DNA of 64,000 nucleotides from Frankia sp. AgB32. Lineage in GTDB: Bacteria; Actinomycetota; Actinomycetes; Frankiales; Frankiaceae. The stretch's first letter is position 1, and every line of letters starts with the position of its first letter. Location: the NCBI RefSeq assembly GCF_023243045.1, contig NZ_JALKFX010000023.1, positions 1 to 64,000 of the forward strand. Reading direction: 5' to 3'. Under the pieces are notes generated by a model that did no database searches, was not told where the DNA came from, and saw nothing but the letters and a program-made list of their open reading frames with translations. The position numbers were made by a program, and so were the translations under genes. This document shows positions 25,191 through 40,321 of this stretch, piece after piece.

Positions 25191-26441
25191 TCAGTATCGC
25201 CGCATCGTGGACGAGTCCACCTCGGCGTGCCCACCGCGCTCGTCCTGGCGGGTCGGTGGTCCCTGCCCATCCGGGTTCCGCTGCTCATCCGCGGCCTGAT
25301 GCGCACCTGGGGCCTGATGCGCACCCAAGGCCGGACGCGCACCCGGGGTCTGATGCGCACCCGGCGGCCGGCGCGGATGGGCGGGCGGACGGCAGCAGTG
25401 CGCCGCGCAGTCGGCGGGCCAGGGCCCGAACTCCGTCAGCGCCCGACGCGGCAGGTCCGGGTCACGCCACTCGTCGAGGAGTTCCCGCACCATCGCGACG
25501 AACCTGGGATCGGTGCCCACCGTGGCGGCGCGGGTCACCGCCAGCCCGAGCTCGCGTGCTCGGCTCAGGGCGATGACGTCCAGGTCGTACGCGACTTCCA
25601 TGTGATCGCTGATGAAGCCCACCGGCACGAGGACGGCGCTGGCCGGGCCGCCGGCGGCGAGCTCGGCCAGTCGGTCACCGACGTCAGGTTCCAGCCAGGG
25701 GACCGCCGGCGGTCCGCTGCGGCTGCAGAACACCACCTCGGCGGGATGGCGCACGCCCGTTCGCTGCTCGACCCGCGCGGCGATCGCTGCCGCGACCGCG
25801 CCCAACTGGCGCGAGTAGGCATCGCCGTCGGGCCCGCTGGTCCGAGCCTGGGAAAGCGGCAGGGAGTGGGCGGTGAACAGCAGGTGGGCGTCGGCCCGCG
25901 ACGAAGCCGGCAGGTCCGCCAGCGCGGCCAGGCAGTGGTCCACCATCGGCTCGACGAACCCGGGATGGTCGAAGAACAGCCGCAGTTTGACCAGTTCCGG
26001 GCGGGGCGCCCCGGGCGCGAGCACGGTGAGCGCGTCGGCGAGGTTCTCGCGGTACTGCCGGCACCCGGAGTACGACGAGAACGCCGAGGTGACGAAGCAG
26101 GCCGCCCGGCGGACCCCGTCAGCCGCCATCCGTGCGACGGTGTCGCTCAGGTAGGGCGCCCAGTTCCGGTTGCCCCAGTACACCGGCAGCTCCGGCAGGC
26201 ACGCCCGCAGCGCGGCGGCGAACGCCCGGTTCTGGTCGTTGAGCGGGCTGCGGCCGCCGAACATCGCGTACTGCTCGGCGACGGTGGCGAGGCGGGAGGC
26301 GGGCACGTCCCGGCCGGCCGTGACATTACGCAGGAACGGCGCGACATCGTCGGGCCCCTCCGGGCCGCCGAAGGACACCAGCAGCAGCGCGTCGAACTCC
26401 TCGCCCCCGCCGCGTCGGCCGGATGGTGCGCCGCCGGTCAC
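25191..26441 (-). CDS. hemH: Coproporphyrin/protoporphyrin ferrochelatase (416 aa)
   Basis: Inserts Fe(II) into the porphyrin in haem synthesis; in actinobacteria the usual substrate is coproporphyrin III (name cpfC). Family marks: DALLLVSFGGPEGPDDV, the region GNRNWAPYLSDTV, SAFSSYSGCRQYRENL, LLFTAHSLPLSQ with the active-site His, and FISDHMEVAYDLD. A cysteine in SGCRQYRE and three in DCAAHCC near residue 345 match the ligand pattern for the [2Fe-2S] cluster of actinobacterial ferrochelatases. The C-terminal extension (about 355-416) is a run of PGAHQ-type repeats encoded by 18-bp near-repeats at 25270-25375; it is atypical and probably disordered. Its start overlaps the stop of the upstream small gene. 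Confidence 0.94.
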   Translation of the reverse strand: MTGGAPSGRRGGGEEFDALLLVSFGGPEGPDDVAPFLRNVTAGRDVPASRLATVAEQYAMFGGRSPLNDQNRAFAAALRACLPELPVYWGNRNWAPYLSDTVARMAADGVRRAACFVTSAFSSYSGCRQYRENLADALTVLAPGAPRPELVKLRLFFDHPGFVEPMVDHCLAALADLPASSRADAHLLFTAHSLPLSQARTSGPDGDAYSRQLGAVAAAIAARVEQRTGVRHPAEVVFCSRSGPPAVPWLEPDVGDRLAELAAGGPASAVLVPVGFISDHMEVAYDLDVIALSRARELGLAVTRAATVGTDPRFVAMVRELLDEWRDPDLPRRALTEFGPWPADCAAHCCRPPAHPRRPPGAHQTPGARPALGAHQAPGAHQAADEQRNPDGQGPPTRQDERGGHAEVDSSTMRRY

Positions 26442-26743
26442 CGCGACACGCGGCCGGCGATATCGGCCGGATAGGTCGGAAAATAACGGCTGATGGTCGA
26501 CAGCTCGAAGGATCGCAGGATCGACCGCGCGGACTCCCGGGTGAGCAGGTACTCGAAAGACGCGCGCACCAGGGCGATCTGGCCCGGCTCGTCCTCGACG
26601 GCGATCCCGGTCGCCGCGAGCACCTTGTCGTCGACCCGCACCTGATAGGTGAAGGACAGTCCCGGCACACCGGGCGAGGTCTCCTCGGCGACTGTCACCT
26701 CGAAGTCACGGCCACCGCGCGGTTCCACCCGAATCACGCTCAT
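26438..26743 (-). CDS. Conserved small protein upstream of ferrochelatase (101 aa)
   Basis: Not assigned a function. Compact, highly charged protein starting MSVIRVEPRGGRDFEVTV with a predicted beta-rich N-terminal half (LSFTYQVRVDDKVLAATG) and a helical C-terminus (ALVRASFEYLLTRESARSILRSFELSTISRYFP). ATG at 26743. The stop overlaps the ferrochelatase start (ATGA), so the two are translationally coupled; the product may serve haem synthesis or iron handling, but that rests on position only. Confidence 0.78.
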   Translation of the reverse strand: MSVIRVEPRGGRDFEVTVAEETSPGVPGLSFTYQVRVDDKVLAATGIAVEDEPGQIALVRASFEYLLTRESARSILRSFELSTISRYFPTYPADIAGRVSR

Positions 26744-26989
26744 CGGACCCACTCCCTCGTGGCCGCGCCGACCTGCCGCCGCCACGGCGGTCACCGGACG
26801 GAAGGCCCGGGATCCACGGGCCGGGGACCGAAGGCCGCGACGCGGGGCCCCGGCCCGGCGGCGCGGCACGGCTGCGCCGTCCACGATATCCGCAGCCGCC
26901 GCGTCGTACCCACCCACGGGCCGCCGCGGCCCGGCCGGGCCTGGCCCGCGCCGACGGCCGCGCTCACGGCGCTGATGCCGTCCTCCCGG

Positions 26990-27706
26990 TCAGTGCCCCA
27001 TACTCAGGCCGCCGTCGACCGGGATCAGCGCGCCGTTGATGTAGGCCGCGGCCGGCGAGGCCAGGAACGCCACCAGCGCCGCGACATCCGCCGGCTCCCC
27101 CATCCGACCGCCGGGCACCGCGGCGGTCAGCGCCTGCCGCTGGGTGTCCGTCAACGCGTCGGTCATGTCCGTGCGGATCGGTCCAGGGGCCACGACGTTC
27201 GCGGTGATGTTGCGCGGGGCGAGCTCGCGGGCCAGGGACCGGGCGAACCCGATCAGGCCCGCCTTGGACGCCGCGTAGTTCGACTGCCCCGGTCCCCCGA
27301 CGGACGCCACGACGGACGACACGAAGATCAGGCGTCCGCGGCGCAGGCGCATCATCGGCCGCGCGGCCCGCTTCGCCACCCGGTAGGCGCCGAGCAGATT
27401 GGTGTCGACGACCTCCTGGAAGGCGTCCTCGCTCATCGTGGCCAGCAGCGTGTCACGCACGATGCCGGCGTTCGACACGACGATCTCGACGGGGCCGAAC
27501 TCGGCCTCCACCTCGGAGAACGCCTTGTCCACGCTCTCCGCGTTGGTGACGTCCAGCCGGACCCCCAGCATGCCCTCGGGGGCCGTCCCGCCCCGGCTCC
27601 CCACCGCGACCCGCTCCCCCGCGGCGGCGAGCGCGGCGGCACAGGCGGCACCAATACCGCGATTACCACCCGTGACCAGGGCGACGCGGCCCTCGTTTTC
27701 GACCAT
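26990..27706 (-). CDS. fabG: 3-oxoacyl-ACP reductase, FabG/SDR family (238 aa)
   Basis: NADPH-dependent short-chain dehydrogenase of fatty-acid elongation (beta-ketoacyl-ACP to beta-hydroxyacyl-ACP). Cofactor motif TGGNRGIG, NAGIVRD, catalytic Ser in SSVVAS and Y-x3-K in NYAASKAG, and the FabG-type APGPIRTDMT loop. The start ATG at 27706 gives the normal FabG N-terminus (RVALVTGG). In mycobacteria the equivalent fabG1 is followed by inhA; here an InhA-type gene is found 4 kb away with other genes in between. Confidence 0.92.
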   Translation of the reverse strand: MVENEGRVALVTGGNRGIGAACAAALAAAGERVAVGSRGGTAPEGMLGVRLDVTNAESVDKAFSEVEAEFGPVEIVVSNAGIVRDTLLATMSEDAFQEVVDTNLLGAYRVAKRAARPMMRLRRGRLIFVSSVVASVGGPGQSNYAASKAGLIGFARSLARELAPRNITANVVAPGPIRTDMTDALTDTQRQALTAAVPGGRMGEPADVAALVAFLASPAAAYINGALIPVDGGLSMGH

Positions 27707-27871
27707 GGCGGGATAGTAACCGTCCGACCCGCCGCGCCCGGGCTTCACCCGACCCACGACACCCGGCGCTGTCCCCACCGGCGGCCACCCGGACATCCCC
27801 GCGCCGTCACCCCGTCGCGCGATCCGGTGACGCGCCGGATGCGGCACGATGTCACGTATGCGGGGTCAGGA

Positions 27872-28180
27872 ATGCGGGTGACCATCCGGGTGCAGCCCGG
27901 CGCCGCCCGGCCAGGCGTGGGCGGGTCCTGGGCGGATCCGCAGGCCGGCACCGCCCTGGTCGTCCGGGTGGCCGAGCGCGCCGTCGACGGGCGCGCCACC
28001 GAAGCGGCGCTGCGCGCGCTCGCCGACGCCCTCGGCCTGCGCCGCGCCGACCTGCGGCTCGCTCGGGGCGCGACCAGCCGCCTCAAGTCCGTCGAGGTGA
28101 CGCCGGACCCGGCCGACGAACCCGCCCTGCGCACCCGGATCGACCGCCTCCTCGGCGGCGCCGGCTCCGAGCCGCGCTGA
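27872..28180 (+). CDS. DUF167/YggU family protein (102 aa)
   Basis: Small soluble protein of the widely conserved YggU/DUF167 family: RVTIRVQPGAARPGVGG, LVVRVAERAVDGRATEAALRALADALG and RLARGATSRLKSVEV correspond to the conserved beta-alpha core. Function unknown. The ATG at 27872 gives the normal family start; an in-frame ATG at 27839 would add 11 residues. Divergent from fabG. Confidence 0.88.
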   Translation: MRVTIRVQPGAARPGVGGSWADPQAGTALVVRVAERAVDGRATEAALRALADALGLRRADLRLARGATSRLKSVEVTPDPADEPALRTRIDRLLGGAGSEPR

Positions 28181-29004
28181 CAGCCGCGCCACCCGCCACC
28201 CGCCACCCGCCGCCCTCCACGGCCACCCGCCGCCACCGCCACCGCGTCGGCGGTGGCTGCACGGCTGAGCGGCTTCCTGATCTCTTCCGCAGGGATAAAT
28301 CGGTCGTGGAGCCCTGCGGAAGAGACAGGAACCTCCGCTCCCACGCCGACCGCCGCCGACAATCAGGTACCGGCCCCGCGGAGCAGCCCATCGGAGCAGG
28401 TCTGACCTGGTCCTGGCGGGACGAGTCCGGCCGCGTGGCAGCGGCCCGGCCTCGTCGCTCTGCGCGCCTGTGTCCGACCCGGCCGGCGGCGCGGGACCGC
28501 AGATGCTGAAATGGTGCGAAACACCGCCACGGCCGCGGCATCGCTCCGAGGGACGGTCGGGCGGGACGGGAGCCCGGCCGGAACCTGCCGGGCTGGCCAC
28601 ACGCGGTGCACGTCATCGCGGATCCGGCTGACGGCGCAACCTCCGGCCAGCCTGACACGTCCGGACATGGGGAGGTCCTCGTCATGGGACGGAGGCCGAG
28701 CATGCGCAGGCCGGATGCACGACCGGCCGACGCTCCACACGGATACACCGGTCGGGGGGAGTTGACCATTGGACCCGACGACGCCGGACCAGACAGCGCC
28801 CTGTCTGCCGGCATCCCCCTCGACGGCAGTCCCCTCGACGGCACCACGCACGACGGCACCACGCACGACGGCACCGCCGACGCCAGCCGCGACGCCCCCA
28901 CCAGCGACGGCGCCATCCGTCACGACGACGCAGCCGACGACCGTGTGCCGGAGCGCACCGCACCGCGCGACACGTCGTCCCCGTATCCGGGAAGGGACGA
29001 CGCC
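28181..29004. other. Region between DUF167 and the E1-like gene
   Basis: About 820 nt. It opens with short CCACCCGCC repeats (28190-28250), then the long inverted repeat at 28274-28331. From 28606 the frame of the downstream gene is open, but its sequence is low complexity (GACGGCACCACGCAC tandem units at about 28850-28880), so coding is doubtful. A GGGGGGAG purine run at 28756-28763 precedes TTG codons and could mark an upstream start. Confidence 0.4.
28274..28331. repeat. Long near-perfect inverted repeat (20-bp stem)
   Basis: TTCCTG (28274-28279), one bulged A, then a 14-bp arm (28281-28294) pair with 28312-28325 and CAGGAA (28326-28331), giving 20 bp of uninterrupted complementarity apart from the bulge, around a 17-nt loop. 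It lies 94 nt past the DUF167 stop. No U-tract follows. It could be a terminator, a structured RNA element or the end of a lost mobile element. Confidence 0.7.
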
Positions 29005-31716
29005 ATGGTGACCCCGACCATTGCCAGAAGCTCACCCAGCGGCGCGACCGCACAGGCCGCGGGCCTGCCGAACGGCCACCAGGTTCCTCCCGGCGACGTC
29101 GACGGCGCGCCGGTGCCGGGGCCGCCGGGTGGCGTGCTCGACCTCGCGGCGCTGGCGACCCTCGACGAGCGACTGCGCGTCGCCGCCGCCGGGATCATCG
29201 GTGCGGGTGTGCGGTCCGGGCGGCGCTCCGCCGCCGCCGCCCGGCGCGACCGGGCGGGTGCCGCGGCGGCGGCGAGCGTCGCCACCGTGCTGTGGTTCGA
29301 CGCACTGCGCGCCGAGGACCGGGTCAGCGTGACCCCGCATGCCGCCTCTCTCGTCCTCGCCGTCCATCAGGTGCTCGAGGACGCACGGGCGGCGGACGGC
29401 GCCGACGGCGCGGCCCGGCCCGGCACCACGCTGGACGCTTGGTCCCGGCCGGACGCCGCGCCGAACCCCGGCCCGCTGCGGATGCTCGGCGCCGGCAACG
29501 TCGGGCCGAGCGGAACGGTGTGGGCGGCGCTGGCCCGGCGTTTCGCCGGCGAGCGCTTCGACCTCGCGCCCAGGGGCCGGCAGATCTGCCTGGTCGACTT
29601 CGCCGAGCTGCGTGACCCGGCGGTGTGGGAAACGATCACCGATGAGCGGGTCGCCCATCTCGGCGAGCTGTTCTGGGTGGTCACGGTGGCCGGTGGCGGG
29701 ATCGCCGCCGGTGGGGCGGCCGGCCCCGGCGGGGAGGCGGCCCGGGGTGTCGGCGGGCCCGGGGGTGTCGGCGGGCCCGCCCGGGCGGCGCGGATGTTCG
29801 AGGCCGCAGGGTGGCAGGTGCTCTCGGTGCGTTTCGGCCGGCGGCTCGCGGCCCTGCTCGAGCGACCCGGTGGCCACGCGCTGAGGGCCCGCCTGGACCA
29901 GCTCACCCCGGCGCAGTACCGGGAGCTGCTGCACGCCCGCGGCACGGAGCTGCGCCGCCAGCTCGCCGGGCCGGGCGCCACCGGCGTCGGCATCAGCCGG
30001 CTGTTGGACACGCTCAGCGACGAGGAGATCCTCGCCTGCCTGTGCGACCTCGGCGGCCACGACATCCCCCTGCTCATCGACGCGTTCGACGAGGTCGTCG
30101 CCGACCGGCCGACCGTCCTGTTCGCCTACACCGACGACCGCCTCACCCCGGATGACGAGCCCCGCCCCGACGAGGTGCCCACCGCCGACGAACTCACCGC
30201 CGACCAACGCGCCGCCGACGAACGCGCCGCCGACGAACTCGCCGCCGACGAACTCGCCGCCGGCAGGCTGGCCGGCGGCGAGCCGCCGCACGTCGGCGCC
30301 CTCGGGGCGCCGGCCGGGCGGGAACCTGGCGTGGTCGCCGCCGCGGACGGCGCCGTTGCGCTGCGGCCGGGTCGCGCGGATCTCGAACCGCTGCCGTGGA
30401 GTTCCGGGGCCCGTCGGCTCGCCCGGCACGTCGCCCGGTATCTGGACCGGGCGCCCGTCGCGGCGCGGGCTCCGGCGCGGGTTCCGGCGCAGGCGGGGCG
30501 CGCGTTCCCGAACTGGATCTCCACCCAGGACGCGTTCGGCGCGTTGCTGCGTGACCTGCCCGGGCTCGCGCCGCACGCCACCGCGGCGGTGGTCACGATC
30601 AGCACCCGGGCGGCCGACCCGGTGCTGGCCGGCTGGCTGGCTGCGGCGGGCCGGTCATCGGCTGATCCCGGCACCGCCCCGGAGCCGGCCGCACCGCGAC
30701 CGCTGCCCCCGGCGGGCGGCGACGCCGGCCACGCCAGCCCCATCAACCACACCGGCAGCTCCGGCAGCTCCGGCCACGGTGGCGACACCGGTCAGGCTGG
30801 CGCGACCGCGGACGGGCGGCCCAGTGGACGACACGTCGCCGGTGGGTTGTCCGCGGCGGCGTTCGGCGGGGTGCTCGGTTCACTCGGGGTGGCGTGGAGC
30901 CGCCAGGGCCTGCCGCTGCTGCCGATCGGCGTCGCCGACGAGGCGTCCGCCGGCCGGATGCTGCCGGGCTGGCTCGCCGCCTGTGAGGCGGACGCGCGCA
31001 GCGTCCTCGCGGTGGCCGACACCGGGTTCGAACCGGCGGCCAGGGCGCTGGTCTGGAGCGGCGGCGAGGGCGTGCCCACGGCAGTCGCGGCGACCTGGCA
31101 GCCGGCGTTCGCGGCCGACCTGGCCTGGTGTCTGCTCGCCGGCCTCGGCCGCCTCGCCCGTCTCGACGGCGCGGCCAGCCTGATCCGGCTGTCCGCCCGG
31201 CCGGTGGACCAGCGCCTCGCCGAGCTGCCCGTGGACCCCGACGGGCTGCGCCGGCGCCAGGCGCTGGTTCTCGCGGGCGGTTACCGGCTGCACGACGGCG
31301 GTCCCGGCGCCGTCGTCACCCTGGTCGGGGTGGGCCCGGTGATGCCGGAGGTGCTCGACGCGGCGGCGCGGCTGCGGGCCGGGCTGCGCCGTGAGGTCAG
31401 CGTGGTGTGCCTGACCTCGCCGAACGCGGTGTTCCACGCGTTGCAGGCCCGGCGCGGACTGGCCGAGGGGTCGGACGCGCTGCTCGCCGAGCTGTTCCCG
31501 GCGCAGCGTCGCGGCCCGATCGTCACCGTGGTGGACGGCGACCCGCGGACGCTGAGCTTCCTCGCCGGCGTGCACGGCGATCCGATCTCCACGCTCGGAT
31601 CGGCCGCGCCGCCGCCCGGCACGGCCCCGCCCACCGGGCCGGCCGCCGCCCCCGTGCCGGTCGACACGATCATCGGCACCGCGCTGGACCTCGTCGACGA
31701 GGCCGCGCAGGGCTGA
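29005..31716 (+). CDS. Pyruvate dehydrogenase E1 (AceE)-like protein with degenerate cofactor motifs (903 aa)
   Basis: Homologue of homodimeric 2-oxo-acid dehydrogenase E1/transketolase-like enzymes over most of its length: RAEDRVSVTPHAASLV, MFEAAGWQVLSVRFGRRLA (with PGGHALRARLD), DLGGHDIPLLIDAF...DRPTVLFAYT (about 348-375), ISTQDAFG (about 505), SRQGLPLLPIG (about 632), ATWQPAFAADLAWCLL (about 695) and LAGGYRL. The thiamine diphosphate site is not conserved: where family members have GDxE(L/M)DE followed by a VDFN/NCN segment, this protein has VDFAELRD and VVTVAGGG; the EGGAHQS loop is also absent. Two repetitive acidic/Ala inserts (for example ADELAADELAA) interrupt it. Probably a pseudoenzyme or a divergent partner. 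ATG at 29005 has GAAGGGA upstream; the frame stays open to 28606. Confidence 0.78.
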   Translation: MVTPTIARSSPSGATAQAAGLPNGHQVPPGDVDGAPVPGPPGGVLDLAALATLDERLRVAAAGIIGAGVRSGRRSAAAARRDRAGAAAAASVATVLWFDALRAEDRVSVTPHAASLVLAVHQVLEDARAADGADGAARPGTTLDAWSRPDAAPNPGPLRMLGAGNVGPSGTVWAALARRFAGERFDLAPRGRQICLVDFAELRDPAVWETITDERVAHLGELFWVVTVAGGGIAAGGAAGPGGEAARGVGGPGGVGGPARAARMFEAAGWQVLSVRFGRRLAALLERPGGHALRARLDQLTPAQYRELLHARGTELRRQLAGPGATGVGISRLLDTLSDEEILACLCDLGGHDIPLLIDAFDEVVADRPTVLFAYTDDRLTPDDEPRPDEVPTADELTADQRAADERAADELAADELAAGRLAGGEPPHVGALGAPAGREPGVVAAADGAVALRPGRADLEPLPWSSGARRLARHVARYLDRAPVAARAPARVPAQAGRAFPNWISTQDAFGALLRDLPGLAPHATAAVVTISTRAADPVLAGWLAAAGRSSADPGTAPEPAAPRPLPPAGGDAGHASPINHTGSSGSSGHGGDTGQAGATADGRPSGRHVAGGLSAAAFGGVLGSLGVAWSRQGLPLLPIGVADEASAGRMLPGWLAACEADARSVLAVADTGFEPAARALVWSGGEGVPTAVAATWQPAFAADLAWCLLAGLGRLARLDGAASLIRLSARPVDQRLAELPVDPDGLRRRQALVLAGGYRLHDGGPGAVVTLVGVGPVMPEVLDAAARLRAGLRREVSVVCLTSPNAVFHALQARRGLAEGSDALLAELFPAQRRGPIVTVVDGDPRTLSFLAGVHGDPISTLGSAAPPPGTAPPTGPAAAPVPVDTIIGTALDLVDEAAQG

Positions 31717-31742
31717 CCCGCGGCCGCCGTCACCCCGTCGGG

Positions 31743-32516
31743 TCAGACGCCGACGGCGTGCACGCCGCCGTCCACGTGGACGGTTTCGCCGGTGGTCGCC
31801 GGGAACCAGTCCGACAGCAGCGCGACGCAGGCCTGGGCGGCGGGCGTCGTGTCGTGCACGCTCCAGCCGAGCGGCGCCCGGCCGTCCCAGACCTCCTCGA
31901 ACTGGCTGAAGCCCGGGATGCTCTTGGCCGCCATCGTCCGCAGCGGCCCGGCGGCGACGAGGTTCACCCGCACCCCCCGCGGGCCGAGGTCGCGGGCGAG
32001 GTAGCGGGCGGCCGACGCCAGGCCGGCCTTGGCGACGCCCATCCAGTCGTAGGACGGCCAGGCCACCGAGGCGTCGAAGTCGAGCCCGACGACGGACGCC
32101 TTCTCGCCGAACAACGGCAGCGTGGCCCGGGTCAGCGACGCCAGCGACCAGGTCGAGACCTGCAGCGCGGTGCCGACCTCCGACCAGGCGGCCTCGACGA
32201 ACGGCTTGCCGCCGAGGACCGACTCGGGCGCGAAACCGATCGCGTGCAGCACCCCGTCGAGGCCGTCGACGTGTTCGAGCACCCGCTCGGCGAGGCCGGC
32301 GAGCTGCTCCTCGTCGGTGACGTCGAGCTCGACGACGGGGGCCTCGGTGGGCAGCCGCCGGGAGATCCGGCGGGTCAGGGACAGGCCCCGGCCGAAGCCG
32401 GAGAGGACGACCCGCGCGCCCTGCTCCTGGGCGATGCGGGCGACGCTGAACGCGATGGACGCCTCGGTGAGGACGCCGGTGACAAGGATGCGCTTACCTT
32501 CGAGGAGACCGGTCAT
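31743..32516 (-). CDS. Enoyl-ACP reductase, InhA/FabI family (257 aa)
   Basis: NADH-dependent reductase for the last step of each fatty-acid elongation round. N-terminal MTGLLEGKRILVTGVLTEASIAFSVARIAQEQGA is the InhA/FabI signature, and YDWMGVAKAGL carries the Y-x6-K catalytic pair in the same form as mycobacterial InhA (YNWMTVAKSAL). The substrate-loop region AAGPLRTMAAKSIPG is also typical. The ATG at 32516 fits the family start; an in-frame start seven codons upstream is possible. Not adjacent to fabG as in mycobacteria. Likely essential. Confidence 0.95.
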   Translation of the reverse strand: MTGLLEGKRILVTGVLTEASIAFSVARIAQEQGARVVLSGFGRGLSLTRRISRRLPTEAPVVELDVTDEEQLAGLAERVLEHVDGLDGVLHAIGFAPESVLGGKPFVEAAWSEVGTALQVSTWSLASLTRATLPLFGEKASVVGLDFDASVAWPSYDWMGVAKAGLASAARYLARDLGPRGVRVNLVAAGPLRTMAAKSIPGFSQFEEVWDGRAPLGWSVHDTTPAAQACVALLSDWFPATTGETVHVDGGVHAVGV

Positions 32517-32582
32517 GGGCCGCATCCTGCCAAACATCGCGCCCGGCGCGGGGGTCCCCGGGCAGGAAGGCCGGTGCGCCGG

Positions 32583-34271: not shown

Positions 34272-34985
34272 AGCCAACCCTCTCCGCACGCCGTCGTGCC
34301 TGCTCACCGGCAGGAAGCCCTGGTGAACCACCTTTGGTCACCCTAACCAACGCCCCACGCCCGACCATCGTTCGTGGTGATCCCGCCTGCCGCCTGGCCT
34401 CACCCCTACGAAACGGACCGGACTCTCAGCGAGGACAGCGGGGCTCGGCTCTCCTCGCGCGCGCCGTCGGAGCGCCGGCGACCGACCGCCCGTCCGCGCC
34501 GCACAGACGAACATCCAGCCCCGATCCGCGCCACGGTCATCCTCCGTCAAAATGAGGCACGACAAATCCCCATCGACGCAGAGCAGAGGCGACCCGATCT
34601 TCGCTTTCCGCGACCAGATGCCCGATTTATCCATGACGAACAATCGCACCTCCTGCGCCGGCACCGCACCGTCCGGTAACCCTGTCCGCGCCGACCGACA
34701 TCCCACCGAGACGGTCGCCGGGCGACGAGCGGATCGTCGGACCGCCCTGTTCGTCAACATGCGCCGTAGGTCGAGAATGATTCTGGCGACCCCGCGTCAC
34801 CGGCCGGCCGATCCACCGCGGCCAGGACGATGAGGCACGGGCACGGGCACGGCCACGCGGACCGAATGAACGCGGCGAGCCGACAGTTGACTTACCTCCG
34901 CGGTTCACCCGCGGCTACACTTCATGACGCATCATCCGGGAGCGCCGGATCGGCGTTCGGGGCCCGGCTTCACGGGGGTAGAAGT
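34272..34985. other. Intergenic region upstream of lipoprotein/TIR operon
   Basis: About 710 nt between divergent operons. No gene is supported; open frames lack homology. It includes a GGGCAC-type short repeat at 34838-34856 and the dyad at 34898-34914. Base composition from 34530 to 34630 is lower in G+C than its surroundings. Confidence 0.4.
34898..34914 (+). promoter_or_regulatory. Dyad CCGCGG-n5-CCGCGG before lipoprotein/TIR operon
   Basis: Two CCGCGG palindromes separated by TTCAC, flanked by TTGACT (34887-34892) and TACACT (34916-34921). The spacing of 23 nt is too long for a simple sigma-70 promoter, so the dyad is better viewed as a possible regulator site. It is about 70 nt before the chosen ATG. 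Confidence 0.3.
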
Positions 34986-36257
34986 ATGTCCGTCGTCCGT
35001 TCAGATGGAGTTCAAAGAAGTAGGCGTCACCGGCGGGAACCAACGAGCGGGACGGCGTACGAACCCCGACGGACCGACCCGCGCCGCCAGCTGAGGCGTC
35101 CACGGAGTTCCCCCTTGTCGGCTCGCCCTGGCCATGAGCTGCTAGCGCACGGACCGACGACGGGAATCCGACCGGGACGGACGGCCCGCCTGTTGCTCTC
35201 GATCCCGCTGGCCGGACTTCTCGCCGGCCTGGTCGGCGGATGCGCCGGCGCCGGAACAGGCTCCTCACCAGACGGCGGCGCAGCCCTGGAGGCGACAACG
35301 TCCGTCGTCTCCGGCCCGAGCGCGACAGAGCTTTCCGGACAGAATCCCGGCGGTGCGACGGGCACCCCAGGAGGCACCCCAGGAGGCACCCCCGGAGACA
35401 CCTCCGGAAGCCCCGGCGCAAGCACCGGCGGTAGTAGCCGGACAGACAGCGGTGGCGGGACGGGCGGCACCGGAACCGGCGGTGGCGGAGGTACCGGCGG
35501 AGGTACCGGCGGAGGTACCGGCGGAGGTACCGGCGGAGGTACCGGCGGAGGTACCGGCGGAGGCGGCGGTGGCAGCACCGGCGGAGGCGGCGGTGGTGGT
35601 GGAGGCGGTGGCGGTGGAGGCGGTGGCGGTGGCGGAGGCGGAGGCGGCGGGTCGCAGCAGATTCTGGTGGACACGCCGAGGACGAGGCCCTTCGAGTACG
35701 GCATGACCGTCGCTCTCAACGCACGGGCAAGTTCGGGGCTCCCGCTCACCTACGAGCGGGTTGAGGTCGGCGGCGCCCAGCAGGCCTGCCAGACGGTCCA
35801 GCCGAACGGTGTGGTGCCGATCGTGGGCCGCGGAAAGTGTCTGATCAGGATTTCCCAGGCTGGCAACGATTCGTTTCCACCGGTCACGAGAAGTGTCGAA
35901 TTCACGCTCGAAAGCGCGGTTACCCGTTACACCTGGCAGGGACCGGACACCAGCAGCGGCGAGGACTTCTACCTGACCGTCGCGCGCGCCAGCGGGTCGC
36001 TTGCCGCGGCGGTCAGGGTCACCGCGGGCCCCTGCGAACTCGATGCGCATGGGGAACGCCGAAAGGAGGCCACCTACCCCGATTTTACAGCGACGAGAGA
36101 CAGCGCCGGACTCCTGCGCAGTTACAGACTACACGGCTATGCGAACCTCGCCGGCGCAGCCCAGGTGACGTGTACGTTCGAACTCACGGCTGGCGATGAC
36201 GGGAACAGCCTCAACCTTCCCGAACCCCTGTACAAGACCGTCACGATCACTCCTTGA
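34986..36257 (+). CDS. Gly-rich Ig-like lipoprotein coupled to TIR-STAND gene (423 aa)
   Basis: Predicted secreted lipoprotein of unknown function. A basic region leads to a hydrophobic segment and lipobox (GLVGGC, cysteine at about 86 from this start). Then comes a spacer of Thr/Gly/Ser and a pure Gly/Thr tract of about 75 residues, encoded by six perfect 12-bp repeats (35484-35555) and a GGN-rich run to about 35650. The C-terminal 200 residues are beta-rich; CLIRISQAGNDSFPPVTRSVEFTL resembles the Ig-like repeat of bacterial surface proteins (C.v.a.QaGn..y..a..v..sftv). ATG at 34986 has GGGGG seven nt upstream; the signal part is far inside, so an internal TTG (35115) may be the true start. 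The stop overlaps the TIR gene start (TTGA). Confidence 0.75.
   Translation: MSVVRSDGVQRSRRHRREPTSGTAYEPRRTDPRRQLRRPRSSPLSARPGHELLAHGPTTGIRPGRTARLLLSIPLAGLLAGLVGGCAGAGTGSSPDGGAALEATTSVVSGPSATELSGQNPGGATGTPGGTPGGTPGDTSGSPGASTGGSSRTDSGGGTGGTGTGGGGGTGGGTGGGTGGGTGGGTGGGTGGGGGGSTGGGGGGGGGGGGGGGGGGGGGGGGSQQILVDTPRTRPFEYGMTVALNARASSGLPLTYERVEVGGAQQACQTVQPNGVVPIVGRGKCLIRISQAGNDSFPPVTRSVEFTLESAVTRYTWQGPDTSSGEDFYLTVARASGSLAAAVRVTAGPCELDAHGERRKEATYPDFTATRDSAGLLRSYRLHGYANLAGAAQVTCTFELTAGDDGNSLNLPEPLYKTVTITP
35484..35555. repeat. Six perfect 12-bp tandem repeats (GGCGGAGGTACC)
   Basis: In-frame repeats encoding Gly-Gly-Gly-Thr inside the lipoprotein linker, followed by a longer degenerate GGC/GGT run to about 35650. 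Twelve-bp units keep frame when copies are gained or lost, so linker length can vary without breaking the gene. Confidence 0.9.
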
Positions 36258-39200
36258 CGGCCACATCAGGTCCAGCGGCGGAAAGGCGCATCGATCCCGA
36301 CCGGTTCGACGTCTTTCTGTCCTACAACCGAGATGATGGCGATCTCGTGGCCGAGCTCGCGGCACATGCCCGGCACGCCGGGATGGCTGTCTGGTTCGAC
36401 CGGTGGCAGATCGCGCCGGGCGACCTCTGGCAGGCGAACATCGAGGCGGCGCTGTCGTCCAGCCGGTCGTGCGCCATTCTTGTCGGGCCGGCCGGGTTCG
36501 GCCGCTGGGAACGTGAGGAACTTCGGGCGGCGCTCATCAGGACGGTCGAAAGGCCGGCCGAGTTCCGCGTCTTCCCGGTGCTCCTTCCCGGCGTCGTCAC
36601 CCCGTTCGACGAGACCACCATGCCGCTGTTCCTGCGGTCGCGGGCCTGGCTCGATCTGCGGACGGGCCTCGGGCACCGGACGGGTCTCGCGCTGCGCGAC
36701 GCCGTCGACGGCACCCTCGCCCAGGACGGCCGGGCGAGCGCGCGGCGGCCCGCGGACAGCACCGGGATCAGCCCGTATCCGGGTCTGACCGGCTTCGACC
36801 AGGAGTCAGCACGTTTCTTCTTCGGCCGCGCCGCCGAGACTCAGCGGGTCCTCGAGGTGCTGCGCGGAGGTCGGTTCGTCGCGGTCGTCGGCGTTTCGGG
36901 CAGCGGGAAGTCCTCGCTCGCGCTCGCCGGCGTGCTGCCCGCGCTGGCCGCGCGGGCACTGCCCGGCTCGCACCGATGGCCGGTGCTGGTGCTGCGCCCC
37001 GGCGCGCTGCCGCTCGACACCCTGGCAGCGACGATGGCGGCCCACATGCCGGCCCTCGATCCGCTGGCGCTGCGCGACCAGCTCGCCGCCAGCCCGGAGA
37101 CCCTCCACCTGCGGCTGATGACGATGCTGGCCGGGCCGGCCGCGCCCGGCGGCGTCCTGCTGGTCGTCGATCAGTTCGAGGAGGCACTCACGGCCGGCCT
37201 GGGAGCGGCGGAGTTCGTCGCGAGTCTCGCGCACGCGGCCACCGTCGAGGGCGGACCCGTCCGGGTTCTGCTCACGATGCGCGCGGACTTCTATTCCCGC
37301 GCCGCCGACTTTCCCGCCCTGTCCGGACTCCTCGTCGCGAGGCAGTTCCTACTGGGGCCGATGAAACGGGAGAAGCTGCGCGAGGCGATCGTGGGACCGG
37401 CCGCGCTGTGCGAGCTCGAGTTCTCGGCGACGCTGGTCGAGACCATTCTCGACGACGCCGGCACCGAGGCCGGCGCGTTGCCGCTGATGCAGCACGCCCT
37501 GCGTCGGCTGTACGAAAGGCGCTCGGGCAGTGTCCTGACCCTCGCGGCCTATCGGGAGATCGGCCGCGTCGATGGTTCGCTGGCACTGCATGCCGACGGG
37601 ATCCTGGCCGGCCTCACCGAGAGCCAGCGCCGCGCCGCCCGCGGCGTCCTGCTGCGGCTGACAGCGGTCGGCGACGGCACCGGCGACACCCGGCGCCGCC
37701 TGCACCCGCCGGAGCTGGTGACCACCTCCGGCGGCCCGGCGGAGGTCGCCGAGGTGATCCGCGTGCTGGTCGACGCGCGCCTGCTCACCGCCGGCACCGA
37801 GCCGACCGGCGGCGCGGCCACCCTGGAGATCACGCACGAGGCGCTCATCCGGCACTGGCCGGTCCTGCGGGCGTGGGTGGACGACGACCGGGCGGGGCAT
37901 CGGCTGCGCGAGCAGCTCACCGGCGCGACCAAGGAGTGGGTTGCCGCCGGCGAGGAGCCGGGCCTGCTGTTCGGCGGAACCCGTCTGGCTGTCCTGCTCG
38001 CCTGGTCGCAGGACCATCCCGGTGATCTGACCGGGACGGAGTCCCGTTTCCTCACCGCGAGCGTCGCGGCGCGGGAACGCGTCCAAGCGCAGGAGCGGCT
38101 TGTGCGCGAGGAGCGCCGTCGCCACCGCGAACGTGTTCGCCTGGCGATCGGCGCGACGGTGGTGCTGACCATCGCGGCGCTGGTGGGGGCCACGTTCGGA
38201 CTGATTGCCCAGAGTCAGAAGCGGGACGCGGACCGCCAGCGGACGTTGACGCGGTCGGTGCAGCTCGCCGCGCAGGCGGACGAGCTGCGCGCCAGCCGGC
38301 CGGATCTCGCGGCGGTGCTCGCGGTCGAGGCCAACGCGATCTCGCCGACGATCGAGGCCCGCGGCAGCCTGCTCAACACGGTGGCGCAGACCCCCGGGCT
38401 GGTCCGCGTCCTGCGGCCCACCTCGCCGGCGTCCGGCGCCCTCACCGTCGACGTGGCCGGCGACCTGCTCGCCACCGCGTCCCAGGACCATTCGATCAGC
38501 CTGTGGCGCCCGGCCACCGGCCAGCTGGTCACCGGGCCCCTGGCCGGGCACGACGCGCCTGTCGTCGGCATCGGCGTCGACGGCGCGGCGGCCCGGATGA
38601 CAAGTGTCGACCTGCGGGGTCGGCTGCTCGTGTGGGACCTGCACACGTTCGCCGCCCACCAGGCGGGCGGCCTGCGACACCCGGTGTCCGTGGCGACACC
38701 GTCGCCGGACGGGCGGACGCTCGCCGTCGCGACGGACGCGAGCGACGTCCTCGTCGTGAACGTGGACGACGGCGCGCTCATCCGGTCCTGGCCGCCGGCC
38801 GGTCGCCCGGTCACCGCGCTGGCGTTCACGCTGGACGGGCAGTCGCTCGCCGTCGGCGACACGGCGGGGATGGTCACCACGCTGTCGCTGGTCGAACCGG
38901 ACCGGCGCACGGCCCCCGCCCCGGTCGGCGCGTCCTCCCGGATCACCGCGCTCGCGTTCAGCCCCGACGGTGGGACCCTCGCCGCGGCCGCGGACGACCG
39001 CGCGGTCCACCTCTGGGACACCGCGGCCGCCCGCCCACGTTCCGACCCGATGTCCGGGCATCGCCGCGACCTCACCGCCATCGCCTATCTGCAGCAGCGT
39101 CCCGACCCCACGACCGGGGTCGCGCCCGGCCCGCTGCTGCTGACCGCCAGTACCGACCAGGCCCTCGGCGTCTGGGACGGGACGTTCCAGACGCCCGGGG

Positions 39201-40321
39201 CCCGCTTCCTCGCCGGACAGCAGGACGCGATCCTTGGCCTGGCCACGTCCGACGCGGGTGTGGTCGCGACGGCGGGACGCAACGGAACGATCGCGCTGTG
39301 GGACGTGACCGGCCATCCCACGCTCGCGCGGGCGCTGGTCGGACATCAGGCCGCCGTCAGCGCCGCCGTCTACAGCCCGGACGGCCGGCTGCTCGCGAGC
39401 GCCGACTACGCCGGCCGGCTGCTACTGCGGGACGCACGGACCGCCGCGGTCATCCGGGTCGTCGTCGAGGGCGGTCCGCCGGTGAGCGCGCTGGCCTGGA
39501 CGCCGCGCGGGCAGCGGCTGATCGTCGGGTACGTCACCGGCGCGGGCCGCCTGCTCGACGTCACCGGCGTGCCGCGCGCGAGCTGGCGCGGCACCGGGAA
39601 CGGGCAGGTCGTCGATCTCGCCGCGGGCGCCGACGGGCGCGTCCTCGTCGTGGCCACCAGCGCCGGCTTCGAGATCCGATCCGTGGCTGACGGCAGCCTC
39701 ATCCGCCAGATCCACACGACGCCGCTGGCCGGCATGGCATTGCGGCCTGACGGGGCGGTCCTGGCCGCCGGCGGAGAAGACGCCACGGTCACGCTCTGGA
39801 ACGTCATGACCGGGCGGCGTCTCGCGGCACCGCTGATCGGCCATGGGCTGCGCGTGCCCGCTCTCGCCTTCAGCCCCGACGGTGCCACCCTGGCCACCGG
39901 CAGCGACGACCAGAAAATCATTCTGTGGGACCCGTCCGCGCACGCCATGCTGGCCGAGCTCCGGGCCCACACCGACCAGGTGTGGGGGCTGACGTTCCGA
40001 GCCGACGGACGAGTGCTGGCCTCCGCGAGCGAGGACGACACGATCGTTCTCTGGGACGTCGCGAGCCGGCGCCCCATCGGCAGGCCCCTGCGCTACGGCG
40101 ACGACCGGACTGACCATTTCGCGCTCCGCGTGCAGTTCCGGGCGGACGGCCGGGCGCTGATCTCCCACATCGGCACCGACCTCGTCCTGTGGAACACCGA
40201 TGAGCGGCAGTGGCCGGGCCTGGCCTGTTCGCTGGCCGCGCGGCCGCTGTCCGCGGCGGAGGGACGACAGTACCTGCGTGGCGGCTCCGCGACGGCCTGC
40301 CTGTCCCCCGCCCGCCGCTGA
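36254..40321 (+). CDS. TIR - STAND NTPase - TM - WD40 protein (1355 aa)
   Basis: Large multidomain signalling protein. Residues 17-150: TIR domain (FDVFLSYNRDDGDLVAELA, WFDRWQIAPGDLW, and W-E-R-E-E in the region where NADase TIRs keep the catalytic Glu). Residues 172-620: nSTAND1-type NTPase with YPGLTGFDQESARFFFGR, Walker A VGVSGSGKSS (about 211-220), Walker B VLLVVDQFEEAL (about 300-311), MRADFYS, and a winged-helix region ending in THEALIRHWPVLRAW. One membrane helix at about 629-655 follows a very basic stretch. From about 715 on there are about eleven WD40-like repeats with recurring D(.)(T/A)(I/V).LWD. The TTG start overlaps the lipoprotein stop, so the genes are coupled. TIR-STAND proteins act in antiphage and cell-death signalling; the role here is inferred, not shown. 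Confidence 0.92.
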   Translation: MTATSGPAAERRIDPDRFDVFLSYNRDDGDLVAELAAHARHAGMAVWFDRWQIAPGDLWQANIEAALSSSRSCAILVGPAGFGRWEREELRAALIRTVERPAEFRVFPVLLPGVVTPFDETTMPLFLRSRAWLDLRTGLGHRTGLALRDAVDGTLAQDGRASARRPADSTGISPYPGLTGFDQESARFFFGRAAETQRVLEVLRGGRFVAVVGVSGSGKSSLALAGVLPALAARALPGSHRWPVLVLRPGALPLDTLAATMAAHMPALDPLALRDQLAASPETLHLRLMTMLAGPAAPGGVLLVVDQFEEALTAGLGAAEFVASLAHAATVEGGPVRVLLTMRADFYSRAADFPALSGLLVARQFLLGPMKREKLREAIVGPAALCELEFSATLVETILDDAGTEAGALPLMQHALRRLYERRSGSVLTLAAYREIGRVDGSLALHADGILAGLTESQRRAARGVLLRLTAVGDGTGDTRRRLHPPELVTTSGGPAEVAEVIRVLVDARLLTAGTEPTGGAATLEITHEALIRHWPVLRAWVDDDRAGHRLREQLTGATKEWVAAGEEPGLLFGGTRLAVLLAWSQDHPGDLTGTESRFLTASVAARERVQAQERLVREERRRHRERVRLAIGATVVLTIAALVGATFGLIAQSQKRDADRQRTLTRSVQLAAQADELRASRPDLAAVLAVEANAISPTIEARGSLLNTVAQTPGLVRVLRPTSPASGALTVDVAGDLLATASQDHSISLWRPATGQLVTGPLAGHDAPVVGIGVDGAAARMTSVDLRGRLLVWDLHTFAAHQAGGLRHPVSVATPSPDGRTLAVATDASDVLVVNVDDGALIRSWPPAGRPVTALAFTLDGQSLAVGDTAGMVTTLSLVEPDRRTAPAPVGASSRITALAFSPDGGTLAAAADDRAVHLWDTAAARPRSDPMSGHRRDLTAIAYLQQRPDPTTGVAPGPLLLTASTDQALGVWDGTFQTPGARFLAGQQDAILGLATSDAGVVATAGRNGTIALWDVTGHPTLARALVGHQAAVSAAVYSPDGRLLASADYAGRLLLRDARTAAVIRVVVEGGPPVSALAWTPRGQRLIVGYVTGAGRLLDVTGVPRASWRGTGNGQVVDLAAGADGRVLVVATSAGFEIRSVADGSLIRQIHTTPLAGMALRPDGAVLAAGGEDATVTLWNVMTGRRLAAPLIGHGLRVPALAFSPDGATLATGSDDQKIILWDPSAHAMLAELRAHTDQVWGLTFRADGRVLASASEDDTIVLWDVASRRPIGRPLRYGDDRTDHFALRVQFRADGRALISHIGTDLVLWNTDERQWPGLACSLAARPLSAAEGRQYLRGGSATACLSPARR

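Follow-up and report, generated by a model that had tools for sequence, protein, structure and literature searches.

The locus studied lies on contig NZ_JALKFX010000023.1 (assembly GCF_023243045.1) of Frankia sp. AgB32, a member of a nitrogen-fixing genus. The window, that is the whole stretch of DNA analysed, is 64,000 nucleotides long, and all coordinates given here are window positions. The name PSE1 is used for the window protein and its orthologues. The gene and its surroundings are as follows:

26990 to 27847, minus strand: fabG, 3-oxoacyl-ACP reductase, from profile match and synteny; the true start is probably inside, with homology from residue ~46.
27875 to 28180, plus strand: DUF167/YggU gene, from synteny, just upstream of PSE1 at the majority of orthologous loci; exact start uncertain.
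28684 to 31716, plus strand: PSE1, gene for a putative E1-like pseudoenzyme, 1010 aa from the ATG at 28684, from orthologues.
28684 to 28800, plus strand: basic N-terminal segment of PSE1, MGRRxxxRRxDxR...GRGELTIGP, conserved in the orthologue alignment.
31743 to 32537, minus strand: fabI, enoyl-ACP reductase, from profile match and synteny; convergent to PSE1, 26 bp away.

The PSE1 reading frame carried no stop across 1036 codons (28606-31716, plus strand), in agreement with the sequence-only reading, which had described a frame intact over 900 codons and had taken this as a sign of preservation. The latter step is weak because the GC content is ~78%, at which an open frame alone is little proof; a 514-aa antisense ORF was likewise open. 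The coding status of PSE1 follows instead from the GC at codon positions 1/2/3 (0.81/0.61/0.90, as for a coding frame), from dN/dS and from the orthologues. The antisense ORF (29032-30576) was considered as a true gene and rejected: it had no Pfam or NCBIfam match, and 28 long orthologous rows carried stops in all three antisense frames when the whole gene was counted. The start had earlier been placed at the ATG at 29005, which falls inside a fast-evolving linker. The gene probably starts at the ATG at 28684, behind GGGGAGGT, since orthologues carry the MGRRxxxRRxDxR segment at this point, with ATG or GTG. This segment is followed by the linker, which extends to ~29115 and shows dN/dS of 0.35-1.3, and no Pfam match fell within the N-terminus.

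PSE1 adjoined fabG in the family genomes wherever the contig allowed, and usually DUF167 too. It was located between fabG and fabI in Frankia, the sister genus g5 and g6 where the contig allowed; in g7 it adjoined fabG, and fabI was more distant or on a separate contig. Neither aceE nor E2 genes were among the conserved neighbours, which were fabG, fabI, hemH and DUF167. Along the direction of transcription on the minus strand (25191-32537), the order was fabI, fabG and hemH, with PSE1 and DUF167 on the opposite strand between fabI and fabG; the mycobacterial order mabA-inhA-hemZ has fabG first. Two further genes were noted on the plus strand of the window. A putative protein at 34830-36257 contained a long polyglycine tract as well as GGGTGG-like repeats and had no Pfam match. 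The ORF at 36254-40321 encoded a large TIR-nSTAND1 NTPase-WD40 protein (Pfam TIR_2, 3e-20; nSTAND1, 2e-113; WD40). Its PADLOC matches, to TIR effectors, were weak, and it may serve in defence or signalling.

Pfam matched PSE1 with Transketolase_C_1 only (E 0.007). NCBIfam matched it with TIGR03186 (E 7e-9), and the aceE model (TIGR00759) scored 29.8 bits (E 1.5e-7), below its cut-off of 859.9. Relatives were taken as the best 80 loci from a scan of genome contigs. Records of Frankia, Parafrankia and Pseudofrankia supplied 14 of these; the others belonged to a ~780-aa family present in many Actinobacteria, with identities mostly of 31-41% in the best segment. All 64 canonical relatives aligned later matched PSE1 at a phmmer E of 2e-78 or better, and the alignments showed homology to this actinobacterial E1 subfamily over the full length. 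The claim of AceE-like homology along the whole protein therefore stands for the ~780-aa family, from which the EGGAHQS motif also derives; AceE itself is far more distant, as the TIGR00759 score indicates. One of the alignments omitted 6 of 83 matches (the second window copy L003 and the ORFs of L067, L072 and L081).

The ~780-aa family aligned to E. coli AceE residues 79-853, and its member L022 (Amycolatopsis echigonensis) scored 209.7 bits with the aceE model, also below the cut-off. An E2-like ORF was present inside the fetched flank in 11 of the 64 canonical loci, directly downstream in 8 of these; in the one locus checked by Pfam (L055), it carried acyltransferase, lipoyl and E3-binding domains. 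No neighbour common to most of the 64 loci was found, some flanks being short. The AceE alignment, the aceE-model score and the E2-like ORFs identify the family as E1 by context. The AgB32 genome encoded a normal AceE elsewhere (1357 bits, motifs intact), and a canonical copy of the ~780-aa subfamily was not found in this genome.

Residues were compared in an alignment of 108 rows: AceE, the 64 canonical relatives, five canonical Frankiaceae copies, the window protein and a further 37 orthologues, as ORFs or as fragments. This alignment excluded L003, the split ORFs of L072 and L081, any PSE1 fragment shorter than 130 residues and the 14 Frankia, Parafrankia and Pseudofrankia loci of the contig scan. 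The E. coli numbering was taken from the alignment of AceE with the ~780-aa family. Fourteen positions were read, and all were kept in 64/64 canonical relatives and 5/5 canonical Frankiaceae copies. The equivalents of AceE H106, D230 (which we take to be part of the Mg/diphosphate motif), N260, Q262, E571 (presumably the catalytic Glu), H640 and the TxKG lysine were found in 0/31 longer PSE1 rows. The D230 position was occupied by Tyr in 13, Phe in 12, His in 4, Ala in 1 and a gap in 1 of the PSE1 rows covering the site (n = 31). The window protein had also lost the GGH loop (AceE H106), the TxKG lysine, D521, E571 and Y599. Its sequence at six of the sites, located by alignment, reads:

29593 to 29616, plus strand: VDFAELRD, in place of the Mg/diphosphate motif GDAELDE; Phe at the D230 position.
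29674 to 29700, plus strand: WVVTVAGGG, in place of DLNRQ/NCNLQ (AceE N258, N260, Q262).
30601 to 30609, plus strand: STR, with Arg at the AceE D521 position, as in 25 of 29 covered PSE1 rows.
30832 to 30861, plus strand: HVAGGLSAAA, in place of ELGIAEVN; E571 replaced by Ala, the catalytic Glu being lost.
30931 to 30942, plus strand: VADE, in place of LYDP; Asp at the AceE Y599 position, as in 26 of 29 covered PSE1 rows.
31033 to 31065, plus strand: PAARALVWSGG, at the site of EGGAHQS/EGLQHE (AceE H640).

The key residues of the motifs GDAELDE, DxNRQSLD, GIAE and EGGAHQS were present in 64/64 relatives and not in PSE1, and the AceE-type ThDP/Mg motif GDGxxDE...NxNxQ was replaced in PSE1 by VDFAELRD and VVTVAGGG. 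The three losses that the sequence-only reading had named, namely a GDxE(L/M)DE block reading VDFAELRD (29593-29616), a VDFN/NCN segment reading VVTVAGGG (29674-29700) and a missing EGGAHQS loop (31033-31065), were all borne out, and the losses extend beyond what that reading had noticed. Because the equivalents of D230, N260, Q262 and E571 are gone, PSE1 should neither hold nor activate ThDP.

A tree was built from 26 of the 64 relatives and the 31 PSE1 rows of at least 450 residues, seven shorter PSE1 fragments being omitted, by a quick method without bootstraps and with the AceE outgroup on a very long branch. The 31 PSE1 rows formed one clade (SH-aLRT 100; stem of 0.94 changes per column) whose internal order followed the genera, and the five canonical Frankiaceae copies grouped outside it, among other actinobacteria. 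Of 35 Frankiaceae genomes, 31 carried PSE1, and the same losses were seen in these genomes, in the PSE1 rows covering the sites. One genome (G025) had lost the gene and carried two short-chain dehydrogenase ORFs between DUF167 and fabI (L176, 5131-6811). In G006, no PSE1 was seen and fabI was 54 bp from the contig end, so the absence is likely an assembly gap. G013, in which fabI and fabG were 18 bp apart, and the 63% complete G015 showed a canonical copy only and no PSE1. Three g7 genomes (G028, G029 and G033) carried a canonical E1 copy (L173, L174 and L175) as well as PSE1; L175 stood apart, and the other two paired with Trebonia, a grouping that suggests separate acquisitions. To look beyond the family, 197 genomes of the class were searched at E 1e-30; 40 matched, and 16 loci (L193-L208), 15 of them outside the family, were checked for motifs. 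PSE1 was not recognised outside the family in this sample, and 15/15 checked outside-family loci kept GDAELDE; in the same check EGGxHQ was unmatched in L205 and the catalytic-Glu pattern was unmatched in L203, L204 and L206.

Among close pairs, dN/dS of PSE1 by region was mostly 0.07-0.36 in the folded blocks and mostly 0.4-1.4 in the linkers, compared with 0.04-0.12 for fabI, the comparison gene. Over 717 core columns the values were 0.18-0.31 in Frankia and g5, 0.27-0.50 in g7 and 0.47-0.49 in g6; canonical pairs gave 0.05-0.34 over the same columns. The core constraint was found chiefly in the C-terminal half and in the block that follows the lost loop. By these values, PSE1 is under constraint, though not as much as fabI, and the constraint is relaxed in g6. 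Two of the four g6 copies (L153 and L154) carried frame breaks, a fifth g6 genome had lost the gene, and one g7 copy (L159) had a single frame break; each break may be a sequencing error or real. The core constraint implies that the PSE1 scaffold is in use. Given the weaker selection and the frame breaks in two of four copies, "preserved" is less true of PSE1 in g6.

An AlphaFold model starting at window position 29116, made with 32 sequences including canonical relatives, reached a pLDDT of 75 and a pTM of 0.73. Its best PDB matches were E. coli AceE (E 4.5e-21), with a Z score of 33.5 over 660 residues and an rmsd of 4.8. With 19 PSE1 rows alone, the pLDDT was 44 and the pTM 0.26, and the fold was not reproduced. 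A three-domain E1 fold is thus predicted for PSE1 from the mixed alignment only, and because the PSE1-only prediction fails, the claim rests on homology.

The shared losses, the single clade, the synteny, the core selection and the normal AceE of the same genome led us to regard PSE1 as a lineage-specific, conserved E1 pseudoenzyme, and we hold this full explanation to be likely. That PSE1 is a pseudoenzyme not using ThDP appears very likely from its residues. A duplicate or acquired copy of a ~780-aa actinobacterial E1 would have come to lie beside fabG in an ancestor of most Frankiaceae. The ThDP/Mg site and the catalytic residues would have been lost along one long stem branch, an N-terminal extension and linkers would have been gained, and the gene would then have been inherited vertically with its folded core under purifying selection. 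Such a protein would bind no ThDP and have no E1 activity, and would instead, probably as a dimer, bind a protein or small-molecule partner. Its role would most likely be that of a regulator or scaffold connected with fatty-acid synthesis or with the use of pyruvate/acetyl-CoA. The simplest way for the protein scaffold to be used is to bind a partner or ligand, and a binding or regulatory mode seems reasonably probable if PSE1 is indeed a non-ThDP pseudoenzyme. The fabI/fabG setting suggests a link to fatty-acid synthesis; any one named partner would be doubtful. It is a speculative and improbable extension that PSE1 senses a metabolite or protein in a rebuilt cleft and ties the supply of pyruvate/acetyl-CoA to the neighbouring fatty-acid system of FabI and FabG.

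Other explanations were weighed against these data. A working ThDP enzyme with the cofactor held by residues elsewhere, which the sequence-only reading had itself named as its refutation, is barely credible. Among the PSE1 rows covering each site, 17 of 30 kept the equivalent of AceE H142 and 29 of 31 that of E232, so the pocket is not entirely erased. However, a scan for GD[GAS]-x24-34-N, which recovered 64/64 canonical relatives and 5/5 canonical Frankiaceae copies, found no displaced motif in the window protein and matched only 2 of the 30 remaining PSE1 rows, fewer than the 4.7 in 31 expected from shuffled PSE1 rows, and the catalytic Glu was present in none of the longer PSE1 rows. An emptied cleft rebuilt as a new active or ligand site without ThDP is unlikely. 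The 69 canonical rows hold 270 columns of 95% invariance or more; PSE1 kept 108 of these, mostly scaffold, and in its favour as a repurposed enzyme re-fixed 32 to another residue, several of them charged and in former active-site loops (118 were variable and 12 gapped). Among the re-fixed residues were the Arg and Asp at the D521 and Y599 positions listed above, together with the Asp next to Y599, which was Glu in 25 of 29 covered rows. Against such repurposing, no known catalytic motif was recognised in PSE1, and its core, in which some rows are incomplete, averaged 2.9 Asn, 13.1 His and 5.2 Tyr versus 12.7, 20.6 and 14.6 in canonical rows, a depletion that fits a loss of polar chemistry better than a gain.

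It is quite unlikely that PSE1, by forming mixed dimers or sharing contacts, acts on the true AceE or on an E2 as a partner that is dominant-negative or stabilises it. The predicted E1 fold and the E1 context of the canonical relatives, with their occasional E2-like ORFs, would fit such a role, but the conserved neighbours of PSE1 do not. In E. coli, the AceE N-terminus binds E2; the match of the subfamily to AceE starts only at residue ~79, with no counterpart to this region seen, which makes competition for E2 through the N-terminus unlikely. Slow decay, in which a redundant E1 copy drifts while high GC holds the frame open, is highly improbable. It would account for linkers near a dN/dS of 1, for the value of about 0.48 in g6, for the frame breaks in L153, L154 and L159 and for the loss in G025, but not for the low core dN/dS in Frankia and g5, the retention across the family or the 108 family-invariant columns still kept. 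The earlier proposal of a preserved pseudoenzyme rather than decay is thus supported by the shared losses, the single clade and purifying selection on the core, less strongly in g6.

ThDP, the vitamin B1 cofactor, serves a group of textbook catalysts recognised by their cofactor motif, and pseudoenzymes are an already known kind of protein. No published description of a pseudo-E1 shared across a Frankiaceae clade was found in open-licence PMC text. The family keeps a ~1000-residue E1 scaffold with its cofactor site erased beside fatty-acid genes, which makes PSE1 a clean case for asking what non-catalytic uses an E1 scaffold may have; "pyruvate dehydrogenase-like" annotations in Frankiaceae genomes may mislead.

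Among known proteins, the ~780-aa AceE-like E1s, such as L022 and L021 (Streptomyces albidoflavus), resemble PSE1 in the whole core and in domain order, and the C-terminal transketolase domain is well conserved between them. They retain every ThDP and catalytic residue checked, whereas PSE1 has none of the essential ones and carries the N-terminal extension and linkers in addition. The best match to the predicted fold is E. coli AceE, the homodimeric pyruvate dehydrogenase E1 (PDB 1L8A, 2G25), with model residues 5-866 placed on AceE 70-862 at 18% identity in the structural alignment; unlike AceE, PSE1 lacks the cofactor site. Human transketolase-like 1 (TKTL1) is another protein of ThDP fold argued to have lost cofactor binding: according to PMC3485151, a model of TKTL1 with its 38-residue deletion folds but is inactive and shows no specific binding of a thiamin cofactor. 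The inactivity of TKTL1 itself is disputed (PMC6334435). TKTL1 has one deletion, whereas PSE1 has, throughout a bacterial family, lost residues from many of the loops that make up the site.
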